Shown here: positions 16,223-34,289 of the stretch, in pieces
How the letters are laid out: the number at the start of each line of letters is the position of its first letter
How positions within the stretch are numbered: the first letter of the stretch is position 1
Notes under the pieces: model-generated
The model's input: the letters and a program-made list of their open reading frames with translations, nothing else
Told to the model about the DNA's origin: nothing
Database searches by the model: none
NCBI GenBank assembly: GCA_021785495.1
Contig: JAJYFB010000012.1
Coordinates: 1 to 34,289, forward strand
Length of the DNA: 34,289 nt
Source of the DNA: Acidobacteriota bacterium
GTDB lineage: Bacteria; Acidobacteriota; Terriglobia; Terriglobales; Acidobacteriaceae
Direction of reading: 5' to 3'
Translations under genes and position numbers: made by a program

Positions 16223-16315
16223 GGCTTTTCTTGTATTTTAATGGAATCGACAGACCGAAAACCGACCGTGCATCGAAAAGCCGTCTTCACATAGCCGCCC
16301 GCGCAATCGAAAAGC

Positions 16316-16345
16316 TTGCATCGGCCGCTGACTTTTTGTTAGGAT
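16316..16345 (+). promoter_or_regulatory. Putative promoter of the cysH leader
   Basis: TTGCAT (16316-16321) and TAGGAT (16340-16345) are 18 bases apart. Transcription would start about 4 bases before the leader-peptide ATG at 16356. Confidence 0.45.
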
Positions 16346-16355
16346 AGCTTCACTC

Positions 16356-16424
16356 ATGGTTTGCTTCCTGCAAATCGCTGGCTGTTGTCGCCCGTCGCTC
16401 ACAACCGACGGGTGTACACGCTAG
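16356..16424 (+). CDS. Cys-rich leader peptide upstream of cysH
   Basis: 22 codons, ATG at 16356 to TAG at 16422-16424. Four codons are cysteine: 16362-16364, tandem 16383-16385 and 16386-16388, and 16413-16415. Cysteine is normally about 1 percent of residues, so this density is notable directly ahead of a cysteine-biosynthesis gene. The tandem pair ends 2 bases before the first hairpin arm, and the fourth lies inside the alternative stems. The predicted promoter places the start codon almost at the 5' end, as in the leaderless polycysteine leaders described upstream of sulfur genes in mycobacteria. The peptide itself is probably not functional; its translation would sense Cys-tRNA. Confidence 0.55.
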   Translation: MVCFLQIAGCCRPSLTTDGCTR

Positions 16425-16488
16425 TCTCTTCTTTTTCCGCACATCCAAAAGAAGACACCCGTAGCTGAACGCCGGGGCTGTCTCTTTT
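16391..16488 (+). promoter_or_regulatory. Putative cysteine transcription attenuator
   Basis: Four segments are visible. Segment 1 CCCGTCG (16391-16397) pairs with segment 2 CGACGGG (16406-16412). Segment 2 extended, ACGGGTGT (16408-16415), pairs instead with segment 3 ACACCCGT (16455-16462), reinforced by TCTTCTTTT (16427-16435) with AAAAGAAGA (16447-16455). Segment 3, AGACACCCG (16453-16461), can alternatively pair with CGGG plus TGTCT (16473-16476 and 16479-16483, two-base bulge), followed by CTTTT. A ribosome stalled on the tandem Cys codons would mask segment 1 and favour 2:3, opening transcription. The U run is short and the last stem is bulged, so the terminator would be weak. Confidence 0.5.
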
Positions 16489-16889
16489 GCGCCTCGGGCC
16501 TTCCGCGCAATCCCCGCTTCCCCCGAGGTCACCGTGTTTGCCGCTGCGAGCATAAATTCGACTCTTTCGGTCCGATTCAATCGCTCCGCGCTCGCTCTTC
16601 TTCCGCATAGTTTGCGGAAAAGGGCGCAACGGCAGGGCGTGATTCGTTTCGGGCGGAGACGGCGGCCGATGCGCTCGGATCTGCCGCGGAAGGAACATTG
16701 GCGACGGTGCGCTTCGAGCCGCGGCCCGTGACCCTGCGCCCTTGGGGAAGGCGTCGCCAACGTGAATGGATGGGCCTCCGCCTCACGCGGACAGCCCCAC
16801 GCACGCCGGGACGCACGAGCGCCAGAGCATTGCGGCGCGCATCTCTCGCGATTTTTCTGCGCGATTTTTTCTGAAGGAGCCGAATTCAA
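16489..16889 (+). other. Long non-coding leader between attenuator and cysH
   Basis: No convincing gene is seen. Two further hairpins can be drawn: CCTCGGG (16492-16498) with CCCGAGG (16522-16528), and TTCCGCA (16601-16607) with TGCGGAA (16613-16619). The region ends with GAAGGAG, the ribosome-binding site of cysH about 10 bases before its ATG. A 400-base gap is unusually long for a simple attenuated operon. A second regulatory RNA or an internal promoter is possible. Confidence 0.5.
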
Positions 16890-17582
16890 ATGAGTGTTCA
16901 AGAGATCTCTAACGAAGTGGAAACCAAGCTCGACGCCATACGGAAAACGCTGGCGAGCGAACTGACGGGCAAGGGCGACGTCTGCCTCACGTGCAGCTTT
17001 CAGGCCGAGGACGTGCTGCTCGCCAAGCTCGCCACCGCGCTCGATGCGCGGATTCCGGTGCTGTTTCTCGATACCGGCTACCATTTTGCCGAGACCTACG
17101 CCTATCGCGACCGCATCGCGCGCGAGTGGAATCTGAACCTGATCAATCTGCTGCCGGCCAAGACCGTCGCCGAGCAGGAGGCCGAGCACGGCCAGCTCTA
17201 TCGCAGCGCGCCCGATCGCTGCTGCGGCCTGCGCAAGGTCGAGCCGCTCTTCAAGGCCGTCGCCGGCTACCGCGTCTGGCTCACCGGCCTGCGCCGTGAG
17301 CAGGCCAAGAGCCGCGCCGCGCTCGAAGAGCGGTCGAACTTCACGCTGCCCGGCGGCGTGCAGGTTCTCAAGCTGGCTCCGCTGGCCGACTGGACGGCGA
17401 GCGACGTTTCGCTCGCCTGCGCGCAGCTTGAAATTCCGCTGCTGCCGCTCTACGAGCGCGGCTACACGTCGATCGGCTGCGAGCCGTGCACCACGCTGCC
17501 GCTCGATCCCAACGATCCGCGCTCCGGACGCTGGGGCGGCCACAAGGTCGAGTGCGGCATTCACATCGAAGCGGCAAAATAA
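16890..17582 (+). CDS. cysH: Assimilatory adenylylsulfate (APS/PAPS) reductase
   Basis: 230 residues, ATG at 16890 with GAAGGAG about 10 bases upstream. The enzyme reduces activated sulfate to sulfite with thioredoxin in cysteine synthesis. The N-terminal PP-loop region (TCSFQAEDVLLAKL) and FLDTGYHFAET are present. The cysteine pairs RCCGLRKVEPL and IGCEPCT are the ligands of the [4Fe-4S] cluster that marks the APS-using type. The C-terminal KVECGIH holds the catalytic cysteine. Length is normal. It is preceded by a Cys-rich leader and followed by a TauE/SafE gene after a strong hairpin. No cysD/N or sulfite reductase gene is in the window. Confidence 0.92.
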   Translation: MSVQEISNEVETKLDAIRKTLASELTGKGDVCLTCSFQAEDVLLAKLATALDARIPVLFLDTGYHFAETYAYRDRIAREWNLNLINLLPAKTVAEQEAEHGQLYRSAPDRCCGLRKVEPLFKAVAGYRVWLTGLRREQAKSRAALEERSNFTLPGGVQVLKLAPLADWTASDVSLACAQLEIPLLPLYERGYTSIGCEPCTTLPLDPNDPRSGRWGGHKVECGIHIEAAK

Positions 17583-31367: not shown

Positions 31368-32639
31368 CTACTTCTTGGTCTGGACCTCGCCCGTCGCGGC
31401 CTGGTGCAGTTTGACTTCCACCTTGTTTTCGAGCGTGTCGTAGTACTGCTTGAGGATCGCGATCACCTCGGGCTTCGAGAACTCGGCCGGCACCGGCTTG
31501 CCTTCGCTCATCAGCTTGCGCAGAAGAGTTCCAGAGAGCAGCAGACGCGCGCCGCCTTGATACTTGCCGTTGTCGTCGATGACGGCCTTGCTCTCGTGCG
31601 GACAGGTCTTCATCGAGGCCATGCTGCCGCACTCGTAGCAGTAGAAGGTCCAGTCCATCGAGAGCGGCTGGGTCTTCAGAGCGCCGGCCGGAATCTCGTT
31701 GAAGATCTTCTGCGCGTCGAAGGGGCCGTAGTAGTCGCCCACGCCGGCATGGTCGCGGCCCACGATCAGGTGCGAGCAGCCGTAGTTCTGGCGGAAGGTG
31801 GCGTGCAGCAGCGCCTCGCGCGGCCCGGCGTAGCGCATCTCCAGCGGATAGCCGCCCTGCAGCACGCGCTCCTTGCGGAAGTACTTGTTGATCAGGGTGT
31901 CAATGGCCTTCACGCGCACATCGGCCGGAATGTCGCCGGGCTTGAGCTTGCCGAGAAGCTGATGCACGTAAACGCCGTCGCAAACCTCGACGGCGACCCA
32001 GGCCAGGTAGGCGTGCGAGTTGTGCATCGGGTTGCGCAGTTGCAACGCTGCGACCGTGCTCCAGCCGCGCTCCTCGAAGACCTTGCGGGCTTCGGCGGGG
32101 CGCTGATAGATGCCGGCGAACTCCTCGGGAAAGTAGGTCTCCGAAAGCACCTTGACCGGGCCGGCCAGATTGACGGCGGCCTGCTCCATCACCTTTTGCA
32201 CGCCGGGGTGCTTCGGATCGACGGTGCGGAAGACCTCCTTGCACTCGTGGTCCTTGTCGATGGCGTACTTCTCCTCGACCTTCATCGTGCCCACCAGGGA
32301 GTCGGTCTCAACGTCCCAAAGCGCCACTTCCTCGCCGGGGGCGATCGACTTGGCCAGTTCTTCCTCGGCCGAAAGCGTGATGGGAATAGGCCAGAAAAGA
32401 TTTTTCTTGCTGGGCATCGAGTAGGTGTCGCAGCAGCCCTTCCAGTCGTCGCGGCCCATGAAGCCATCAAGCGGCGTGAAGGCGCCGATGCCGAGCATGA
32501 TCAGGTCGCCGGTCTCCCGGCTGGTGAGCGGAACCTTCTTCAGACCCGCGGCCTTGCTGGCTTCTTCCGTTCTGGCCTTGCCTTCCAGAAGAAGCGGTTT
32601 CAACTCCGGACTTCCATGCGGTGGAACGAGTTTGCTCAT
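31368..32639 (-). CDS. sat: Dissimilatory-type ATP sulfurylase
   Basis: 423 residues, ATG at 32639 with GAGGAG 7 bases upstream. The enzyme forms APS from sulfate and ATP, or the reverse in sulfur oxidisers. Signature motifs are intact: [13 protein letters not shown] (QxRNPxHxxH type) and [19 protein letters not shown] zinc-binding cluster [17 protein letters not shown], seen in the homo-oligomeric enzymes of sulfate reducers and related archaea, is present. No kinase (CysC) domain is fused. The gene lies 53 bp after qmoC in the same direction, so it is likely in the qmo operon. The direction of the reaction cannot be read from this window. Confidence 0.95.
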
Positions 32640-32692
32640 GTGTATTCTCCTCAAACGATGATAGATTCTGGATGGCAATACTCCAATTAACG

Positions 32693-33862
32693 TCAGGCTG
32701 CGCCGGCCGCCGCGACGCCCGCAGGCGCTTCGGACCGGGCTCTTTGCGTGACGCCCGCCAAGTAGATCGCCAGCGGGCGGTAGACCAGGTGCGCCCACTT
32801 GCCAAAGGGCACTTCCACGGCCAGCATGGGGACCGCGATCATCAGATGGACCTCGTAGGTGACGTAGGTGGCCATCGGCAGGCCGGCGATCCGGAAGAGG
32901 TTCATCAGGATGCCGCTCAACGCGGTCAAAAAAAGGAGGATGGGAAAGAGCCAGTCGGAGAGGTGGCTGAAGCGGTGCATCTCCGAGCTTTTCGCGATCC
33001 GGTCGGCCATGATCCAGAGCGTGGCGATCACGAGCGCCGCCGTTGCGTAGTAGCCGAGGAAGCTGGTCCAGTGAAAGCTGCTGTCCTCGATCTGGAACCA
33101 CGGCAGGAAGACGACCACCAGCGTAAACATGGTCGCGTAGCCGGTGACGAGGACGAAGTGCCGGAGCCAGTTCTTGAAGGCGTTGCGGTCGTCGCAGGAC
33201 TTCCAGCGCAACTGGAAGGCGCCCTGGACGATCAATTCGCGCAACTCGGCGGCGTAGGCGCTCAGGGGAATCTTCCGGCCCGCGGTGAGAAACCGGAACA
33301 TGCGCAGGGCGTTCGTGAGCAGCAGGAAGCTCAGCAGCAGGGCCAGCGTGAGATCGCCCTTGTGCACCATCGCCGCCGGAGCGAACTTGTCGAGCATGAC
33401 CGTGCTGAGGGCCTGCGGCGTCGAGTGGTGCAGCAGGCCGAAGCCGAAGCTCTGCGGCAGGGTGAAGAGCAGCCAGACCACGAAGGCCACCAGCGCAAGC
33501 GCACCGAACTCCCAGGCGGCGGAACTGTAGAGCAGGCGCGAGATGCCCGTCCAGTCGTACTGCGTGGTCAGGTAGCGGCGCAGCGACATCATGTTTTCGG
33601 CCGGGTTGGCGTCGCGTGGGCAGAGCCGCGAGCAGTCGCCGCAGTAGAAGCAGAGCCAGGGGCCGGGGTCGGCCATCAGCTCGTCTTTCATGCCCCACTG
33701 CGCCAGCAGCATCTGGCGGCGCGGAAAGGAATTTTCTACGCTCGACAGGGAGCAGGCCGAAACGCAGGTGGCGCACTGGCAGCACTTGTTGAAGTGGCCG
33801 CCGCAATGGCTTGCCTGGCGGAGAAACTGCCGGTCGGGACGGATGGAGCGCGCTTGTGCCAT
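32693..33862 (-). CDS. qmoC: Quinone-interacting membrane-bound oxidoreductase subunit C
   Basis: 389 residues, ATG at 33862 with AAGGA 9 bases upstream. The N-terminal cytoplasmic part carries two [4Fe-4S] motifs: [15 protein letters not shown] near residue 28 and [17 protein letters not shown] near residue 72. The rest is a haem-b membrane domain with about six helices and several histidines (for example [15 protein letters not shown] and [15 protein letters not shown]). This two-part design (HdrC-like head plus NarI-like membrane part) is diagnostic for QmoC. It joins QmoAB to the menaquinone pool and passes electrons to or from APS reductase. It starts 2 bases after the qmoB stop. Confidence 0.93.
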
Positions 33863-33864
33863 CG

Positions 33865-34289
33865 CTAAAATCCTTTGTATGGATTGGGGCCCAGTTCGCG
33901 GACGCGCGCGACAAAATCGTCGATCGTCTGCGGAAGGCGGCCGTAGTCGTCGATGCCCAGCTCGACCAGCTCGACCCGTCCGGCCTCCAGTTGCAGCCGT
34001 TCGAGCGTGTCTTTCACGTTGGTCAGGCGGCGATTGGCCAGTTCGCTGCCGCGGATGAAGTGGCACTGGTAGTCGTCGCCGAACTTGCAGCCGAGCAGCA
34101 GCACGCCGTCGATGCCGCGCGAGAGCGCATCGGCGATCCAGACGATATTGAGCGAGCCCAGGCAGCGCAGGGGAACGATGCGCACGCTGGCGTCGTAGCG
34201 CGCGCGGTTGCGGCCGGCCTGATCGAGGGCCGGGTAGGCGTCGTTTTCGCAGGCGAAGACCAGAATGCGCGGCTTGTCCTCGAACTCGT
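33865..34289 (-). CDS. qmoB: QmoB, C-terminal end (partial)
   Basis: The frame is open from the right window edge to a TAG at 33865-33867, giving about 140 residues. It shows [35 protein letters not shown] and [20 protein letters not shown], which match the MvhD (methyl-viologen-reducing hydrogenase delta) domain at the end of QmoB, with its cysteines for a [2Fe-2S]-type centre. The HdrA-like flavin part lies outside. The 2-base gap to qmoC indicates one operon. qmoA and aprBA are expected upstream, to the right. Confidence 0.9.

Follow-up and report, generated by a model that had tools for sequence, protein, structure and literature searches.

A probable cysteine-responsive leader-peptide attenuator ahead of sulfate-assimilation genes in the Acidobacteriaceae

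In the classical attenuators of trp, his and leu, codons for the end product are carried within a leader peptide, and the leader RNA can adopt mutually exclusive hairpins (1:2, 2:3 and 3:4). Mycobacterial leaders that carry Cys codons have been studied experimentally (Canestrari et al. 2020, doi 10.1111/mmi.14498), and that of M. smegmatis is described, in the accessible text of PMC13236596, as acting through translation attenuation. The accessible part of Seliverstov et al. 2005 (PMC1262725) reports no conserved terminator hairpins for the mycobacterial cys leaders, and describes, for Mycobacterium, Propionibacterium and Bifidobacterium, Cys leaders that have no obvious terminator. Ribosome-mediated transcription attenuation has been proposed for uORFC-8-2 (PMC8632094, available portion), and leaderless genes have been predicted in three of three Acidobacteria genomes (PMC3160421, available portion). 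Among the papers listed by our literature searches, which covered open-licence papers, none describes a Cys leader in Acidobacteriota.

Here, we describe a leader upstream of cysH in a draft Acidobacteriaceae genome. It lies on contig C51, a stretch of 34,289 nucleotides referred to below as the window. This leader is most probably a cysteine-responsive, ribosome-mediated attenuator ahead of sulfate-assimilation genes, most likely a transcriptional one, and is best read as one member of a family-wide set.

The leader ORF and its relatives

The preliminary description of this DNA pointed to a 22-codon ORF with four Cys codons, two of them in tandem; this ORF is present (Table 1), with its Cys codons at 16362-16364, 16383-16385, 16386-16388 and 16413-16415. 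Among ATG-started ORFs of 8 to 40 codons, no other on the forward strand of the window carries both a Cys pair and at least four Cys codons, and the reverse strand of the window holds one such ORF.

Table 1. Positions of the features discussed, numbered within the window unless a contig is named
Feature	Position	Strand	Description
Likely promoter	16316-16345	+	-35 TTGCAT 16316-16321; 18-base spacer; extended -10 TGT-TAGGAT 16337-16345 (-10 hexamer 16340-16345); read from sequence
Leader ORF MVCFLQIAGCCRPSLTTDGCTR	16356-16424	+	22 codons, stop TAG; from ORF listing
Candidate regulatory Cys pair, TGT TGT (codons 10-11)	16383-16388	+	Invariance in alignment
Segment A	16391-16397	+	CCCGTCG; 5' arm of leader hairpin, partner 16406-16412 (CGACGGG)
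Segment B	16406-16415	+	16406-16412 pairs with A; 16408-16415 (ACGGGTGT) pairs with C as putative antiterminator
Segment C	16453-16462	+	5' arm of terminator-like hairpin; 16455-16462 (ACACCCGT) is the alternative partner of B
Segment C'	16473-16488	+	3' arm CGGG plus T-rich CTGTCTCTTTT; weak intrinsic-terminator-like end
Segment D	16492-16506	+	Alternative partner of GCTGAA-GCCGG (16464-16476)
GAGGTC, Shine-Dalgarno-like	16525-16530	+	Precedes cysD in relatives; no cysD follows in the window
cysH (APS/PAPS reductase)	16890-17582	+	PF01507, 142 bits; NCBIfam phosphoadenylyl-sulfate reductase above cut-off
Second Cys leader, own genome	contig C3, upstream of NIR_SIR reductase		ORF MDLRTCCRRCLPLYAVEGGMV

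A search of cysH loci with positions 16301-16500 identifies 21 further loci that carry the element, in most cases approximately 3 kb upstream of cysH, and in the relatives' loci that were read the order is leader, cysD, cysN and cysH (the genes of L034 being named by Pfam and NCBIfam). When 398 genomes of the family were searched with a covariance model of the element, 48 gave a match, four of them a marginal one (E 0.003-0.009); of the 50 same-genus genomes listed, 31 did so. Over 91 sources, the model yields 74 matches, 61 of which are distinct; these cores are followed by cysD (53), by cysH (2, namely the window and L051, where cysH stands directly behind the leader), by an NIR_SIR reductase (2, extra copies of the window-type leader in G183 and G169), by no room for a gene (1) or by something else (3). 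All but two of the 61 cores (59) contain a Cys-pair ORF, the exceptions being one core cut at its 5' end and one likely false match. The match L162 (G255) looks false, with neither a Cys ORF nor a sulfur gene.

Forty-four of the 61 distinct cores were aligned; the 17 left out are remote, truncated, odd or near-duplicates of others. One of these, L138, matches strongly (125 bits) but has a frame shift at the end of its ORF, after CCC, so that the frame statistics that follow lean towards intact ORFs. The sequence TGTTGT is invariant in all 44 rows, the start codon is ATG in 43 and GTG in one, and the ORF is exactly 22 codons long in 41, the remaining three having 23, 25 and 29 codons. In the 41 rows that could be numbered by codon (L147, L151 and L152 differ in codon number or start), codons 10 and 11 are TGT throughout and codon 12 encodes Arg or Cys, with Ser in a single row, while codons 2 to 9 are variable, with a slight synonymous bias (0.193 in frame vs 0.161 and 0.106 in the other two frames). 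The comparison of relatives that had been proposed as a check on the leader thus finds the ORF, its tandem Cys codons and the pairing segments retained, and not the missing ORF or freely varying codons and segments that would have spoken against it. The leader ORF and its pairings are not a chance occurrence.

Three further copies merit individual description. In G183, the leader that precedes the NIR_SIR reductase (L145) resembles the one that precedes cysD (L125) and retains an ATGCCGG remnant like the start of cysD, which suggests that a leader was duplicated and put to a second use. In G347, a second copy (L144, 1133-1277) stands before an Alginate_exp-type outer-membrane porin gene, as named by Pfam. 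Finally, the same-genus genome G177, in which neither cysD nor cysH is matched, carries a decayed leader, MSRLYPSRACCRSNHFGGWPL (L157, 1089-1238), and is a natural control for the loss of selection.

The window differs from most of these loci in what follows the leader. Its cysH, whose most similar named relatives come from Acidobacteriaceae MAGs (at most 85% identity over the full length, and 87% in one partial match), is separated from the leader by some 400 bases, which the preliminary description had counted as a weak point. This gap is partly explained, since cysD and cysN occupy the site in relatives and neither is evident in the window's own draft genome (98% complete): no cysD was found, cysH itself being the sole weak match, and for cysN there are partial GTPase-type matches only, the best with 34% identity over approximately 115 residues. 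Judged by this arrangement, the gap is probably what remained after the loss of cysD and cysN, which would also have brought the leader directly before cysH. No convincing match to a relic of either gene was obtained between leader and cysH.

At the other end of the window, in the contig-end region 31368-34066 (reverse strand), a sulfate adenylyltransferase gene (sat) follows one that resembles QmoC/HdrC (NCBIfam qmoC, below cut-off); this sat is the sole ATP-sulfurylase (PF01747) match of the genome. The same genome carries dsrA and dsrB on another contig (C195, L166), and no sulfate transporter (PF00916) was found in it. The sat and QmoC/HdrC-like genes, taken with dsrA and dsrB, point to dissimilatory sulfur metabolism, and the sat product may have rendered cysDN dispensable.

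A predicted near-leaderless start and alternative RNA folds

The ORF was originally placed at the predicted 5' end of the message, and a conserved promoter-like site does lie directly upstream of it. This site is absent from the output of a strict consensus scan; in the relatives, its TG-n-TA...T core and its distance to the ATG are conserved, and a -35 element with TTG recurs at near-fixed spacing. The conserved position and the core suggest that transcription likely starts at approximately 16352, only about 4 nt before the ATG, which would leave no space for a Shine-Dalgarno site ahead of the leader ORF. In the window's leader type, approximately 10 nt separate the putative -10 element from the ATG. 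In the other types of leader found before cysD (see below), the ATG often lies, as judged by eye, approximately 7 nt past a -10-like hexamer, a spacing at which these leaders would be leaderless.

The region 16351-16495 folds better than every one of 200 shuffles (z -4.02), and the three pairings originally read from the sequence are all present at the bases named: A with B, B with C, and a bulged stem between 16453-16461 and 16473-16483. Segment B falls within the codons for Asp-Gly-Cys, and segment D, which reads CCGGC-CTTCAGC in many relatives, is altered in the window. Over the 44 rows, pairing is maintained in 97.2% of cells for A:B, 92.8% for B:C, 75.6% for C:C' and 88.5% for the segment D helix (C'':D). 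Covariation, which had been suggested as a further check on the stems, does not rise above shuffles in any of these four helices within the window's leader type, because the segments hardly vary; comparison within this type cannot, therefore, prove the structure. Comparison with known RNA families gave no Rfam match at gathering level, and relaxing the limit to E values of up to 10 gave two chance-level matches outside the leader.

The effect of ribosome position on these folds was modelled by masking the bases that a ribosome would cover, in a transcript cut just after C and before the 3' arm of the terminator; the cut was made because equilibrium folding with the full terminator is uninformative. 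With the whole terminator included, 27 of 37 sister leaders keep it at a probability above 0.5 at any Cys stall codon, and there is no discrimination. In the cut transcript of the window, the predicted probability of B:C is 0.92-0.94 with the ribosomal A-site at codons 10 to 14, 0.66 at codon 15 and at most 0.03 elsewhere. The mean over 41 rows follows a similar course, with 0.12-0.15 at codons 2 to 8, 0.63 at codon 9, 0.80-0.86 at codons 10 to 14, 0.61 at codon 15, and at most 0.02 from codon 16 onward. In 42 of 44 rows, the predicted sequestration of C is greater when the ribosome is at Cys than when it is at the stop codon, and in none is it smaller. The proposal that a waiting ribosome would favour the antiterminator thus agrees with the model, in which B:C forms only with the ribosome at or just past Cys10-Cys11; in these terms, the Cys codons sit where a classical attenuator requires them.

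Sister leaders, terminators and codon choice

In other genera, the position of this leader is taken by Cys ORFs whose sequences differ from it. Eighty further cysD upstream regions were taken from genomes without a covariance model match (two of these, G117 and G363, with loci L200 and L205, are weakly matched as L056 and L057). A short ATG-started ORF with a Cys pair is present in 70 of the 80, compared with 21 on the reverse strand and a mean of 8.15 in shuffles; in a slightly longer stretch, the figures are 70 and 24 for the reverse strand. Short ORFs with at least five Cys codons occur in 60 of the 80 (reverse strand 9, shuffles 0.6). For folding, 37 sister leaders were retained from 51 listed, excluding those with a hairpin closer than 85 nt to the ATG, together with five more that were judged by eye to be spurious (L219, L228, L258, L265 and L266). 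The masking test gives a moderate result for these leaders, with 25 of the 37 moving in the expected direction and three in the opposite one.

The window's own genome carries a second Cys leader, unrelated in sequence to that of cysH, upstream of an NIR_SIR reductase that is probably the assimilatory sulfite reductase (a name inferred from NCBIfam matches below cut-off). Its ORF lies directly behind a TTGAAA/TATATT promoter-like site, and is followed by the hairpin GCCCGCGTACAGCCTCCGGCTGACGCGGGC and then by ATTCTGTTTTTT, which together make a strong terminator. Within the genus, 29 of 30 NIR_SIR upstream regions have a Cys leader, compared with 2 of 30 on the reverse strand. The masking test is weak for this group (10 up, 2 down of 28). 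For these leaders, none of 500 shuffles reaches the covariation score, and there are 15 compensated cells vs 8.4. Two other measures (pairs changed on both sides, and pair types) are no higher than in shuffles, and relatedness among sequences can by itself raise values above those of shuffles without any structure being present.

Terminators are unevenly strong among these leaders. The strict consensus scan lists none on the forward strand of the window. A strict terminator scan passes 6 of the 44 aligned leaders of this type (shuffles: mean 1.3, maximum 3); the 10 nt past the aligned stem end contain five T in the window and two to eight across the type. Behind the other cysD Cys leaders, strict terminators are found in 39 of 68 cases (shuffles 3.1), and a looser scan gives 51 of 68, some of which lie inside the ORF and are not credible. 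In several of these groups, including some in the same genus, a GC-rich stem and then a T-run stand between leader and cysD. All 28 NIR_SIR leaders examined have a strict terminator (shuffles 1.1), one of the 29, L376, having been dropped by the start rule. The short U run, the other weak point of the preliminary description, is partly explained as a property of the window's leader type, while sister types and the second leader of the same genome have canonical U-tracts.

Codon choice also sets the leaders apart from the genes. The codon TGT is rare for Cys in cysD, cysN and cysH of relatives L033-L054 (25 of 269, TGC accounting for 244), and in the long ORFs of the NIR_SIR loci, whose frames were not checked singly, TGC makes up 387 and TGT 24 of 411 Cys codons. 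In the Cys runs of the leaders, however, TGT accounts for 92 of 114 codons in the window's type, 234 of 309 in the other cysD types and 74 of 93 in the NIR_SIR leaders. The leaders thus favour the rare Cys codon and the genes use TGC. A poorly read codon would raise the sensitivity of an attenuator; the preference for TGT in leaders could also be explained by the needs of base-pairing.

Outside the family, the case for such leaders is weak: among 47 cysD upstream regions from other families of the phylum, a Cys-rich ORF (with an ATG, GTG or TTG start) is found in 9, compared with 4 on the reverse strand. A few credible cases occur in family f25 (L302, L305, L306 and L308), where Cys-rich short ORFs such as MVAAAGCACCCCPSALLVPGPFRTFR lie upstream of cysD; these may represent the same principle in another lineage.

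A proposed mechanism, its alternatives and known systems

The ORF, its codons, the RNA segments and the gene context are conserved, and the position of the Cys codons matches the predicted refolding, in support of the attenuator interpretation originally put forward. From here, we infer a start site, termination in the window copy and a response to cysteine that would operate as follows. RNA polymerase would start approximately 4 nt before the leader ATG, and a ribosome would initiate at the extreme 5' end of the transcript, without a Shine-Dalgarno site. When Cys-tRNA is ample, the ribosome would reach the stop codon and mask segment B, leaving C to pair with C', and transcription would end, or be diminished, upstream of the structural genes. 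Under a shortage of Cys-tRNA, the ribosome would wait at the rare TGT TGT codons and mask segment A, upon which B would pair with C, the C:C' hairpin would be blocked, and cysH would be transcribed.

On balance, it is more probable than not that the leader works on transcription. Sensing of cysteine at the level of translation or via Rho appears unlikely; here, as has been proposed for Cys leaders of mycobacteria, the leader RNA would occlude the next gene's Shine-Dalgarno site until a ribosome waiting on the leader exposed it. Mycobacterial cysteine genes are described as being under translation attenuation (PMC13236596 and PMC9031893, accessible portions), strict terminators are seen in only 6 of 44 leaders of the window's type, and the next gene's Shine-Dalgarno site is predicted to be more open with a stalled ribosome in 20 of 43 rows and less open in 2; the mean openness, however, changes little (0.27 at the stop codon, 0.39 when stalled), so that hiding of the site is weak on average. 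In addition, cysH lies approximately 400 bases away in the window, and the sister leaders, together with the second leader of the same genome, have canonical intrinsic terminators.

It is equally improbable that the window leader is a relic of an ancestral control over cysD-cysN-cysH, left with nothing to control once cysD and cysN had been lost. The absence of cysD from the genome, the merely partial GTPase-type matches to cysN, the window's model score of 116.9 bits compared with up to 170 elsewhere, the altered segment D and the decayed leader of G177 would all fit such a history; yet the ORF, the TGT TGT pair and segments A, B and C are intact, the predicted refolding is as expected, and in L051 a leader also stands directly before cysH. 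As for a metabolite-binding riboswitch or other structured RNA in which the ORF is incidental, it is favoured by how strongly the primary sequence of A, B and C is conserved, synonymous sites included, but the start codon, ORF length and tandem Cys codons are kept while codons 2 to 9 vary, and Cys ORFs of different sequence lie at the same place in other genera, making this explanation highly improbable.

Beyond the attenuator itself, there is perhaps an even chance that the Acidobacteriaceae possess a cysteine regulon built from several unrelated leaders that are 5'-terminal and lack a Shine-Dalgarno site. Each would be tied to transcription termination before a separate sulfate-assimilation operon and tuned by UGU codons, with the antiterminator strand doubling as Gly-Cys codons near the end of the ORF. 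If true, this would represent transcription attenuation by ribosomes that load on leaderless RNA, and no leader-peptide attenuator was found for the phylum in the literature searched. The attenuator would provide an RNA-based cysteine sensor for Acidobacteriota, an abundant soil phylum in which little is known of gene regulation, and because this sensor could be predicted from sequence, it would allow sulfate-assimilation operons, and the regulon to which they belong, to be recognised in uncultured genomes. A further question is whether a ribosome that loads at a 5' end without a Shine-Dalgarno site can follow RNA polymerase at a distance short enough to direct the formation of a terminator.

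With regard to known systems, the window's leader shares with the trp, his and leu type the codons for the product and, by prediction, the mutually exclusive hairpins, but differs in having no room for a Shine-Dalgarno site at its predicted 5' end and in its weak terminator. Mycobacterial short ORFs that are leaderless and encode polycysteine (Canestrari et al. 2020, accessible portion) likewise place contiguous Cys codons ahead of sulfur genes; in both cases there are several such leaders per genome, leaderless or, here by prediction, near-leaderless. The Acidobacteriaceae leaders belong to a different phylum, and many of them are followed by intrinsic terminators. A short ORF with tandem Cys codons and then an intrinsic terminator is also the arrangement of uORFC-8-2, upstream of cysS in Rhodobacterales (PMC8632094, available portion). 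That leader controls cysteinyl-tRNA synthetase in Alphaproteobacteria and is dominated by UGC, whereas the leaders described here are dominated by UGU, are near-leaderless by prediction and precede sulfate-assimilation genes, the genes recognised downstream being cysD, cysH or the NIR_SIR reductase, and not cysS. The principle of the mechanism is known; as far as our searches reach, what is new is where it occurs, how widely it is spread across a family, and the combination of a predicted near-leaderless form with terminators in the sister leaders.
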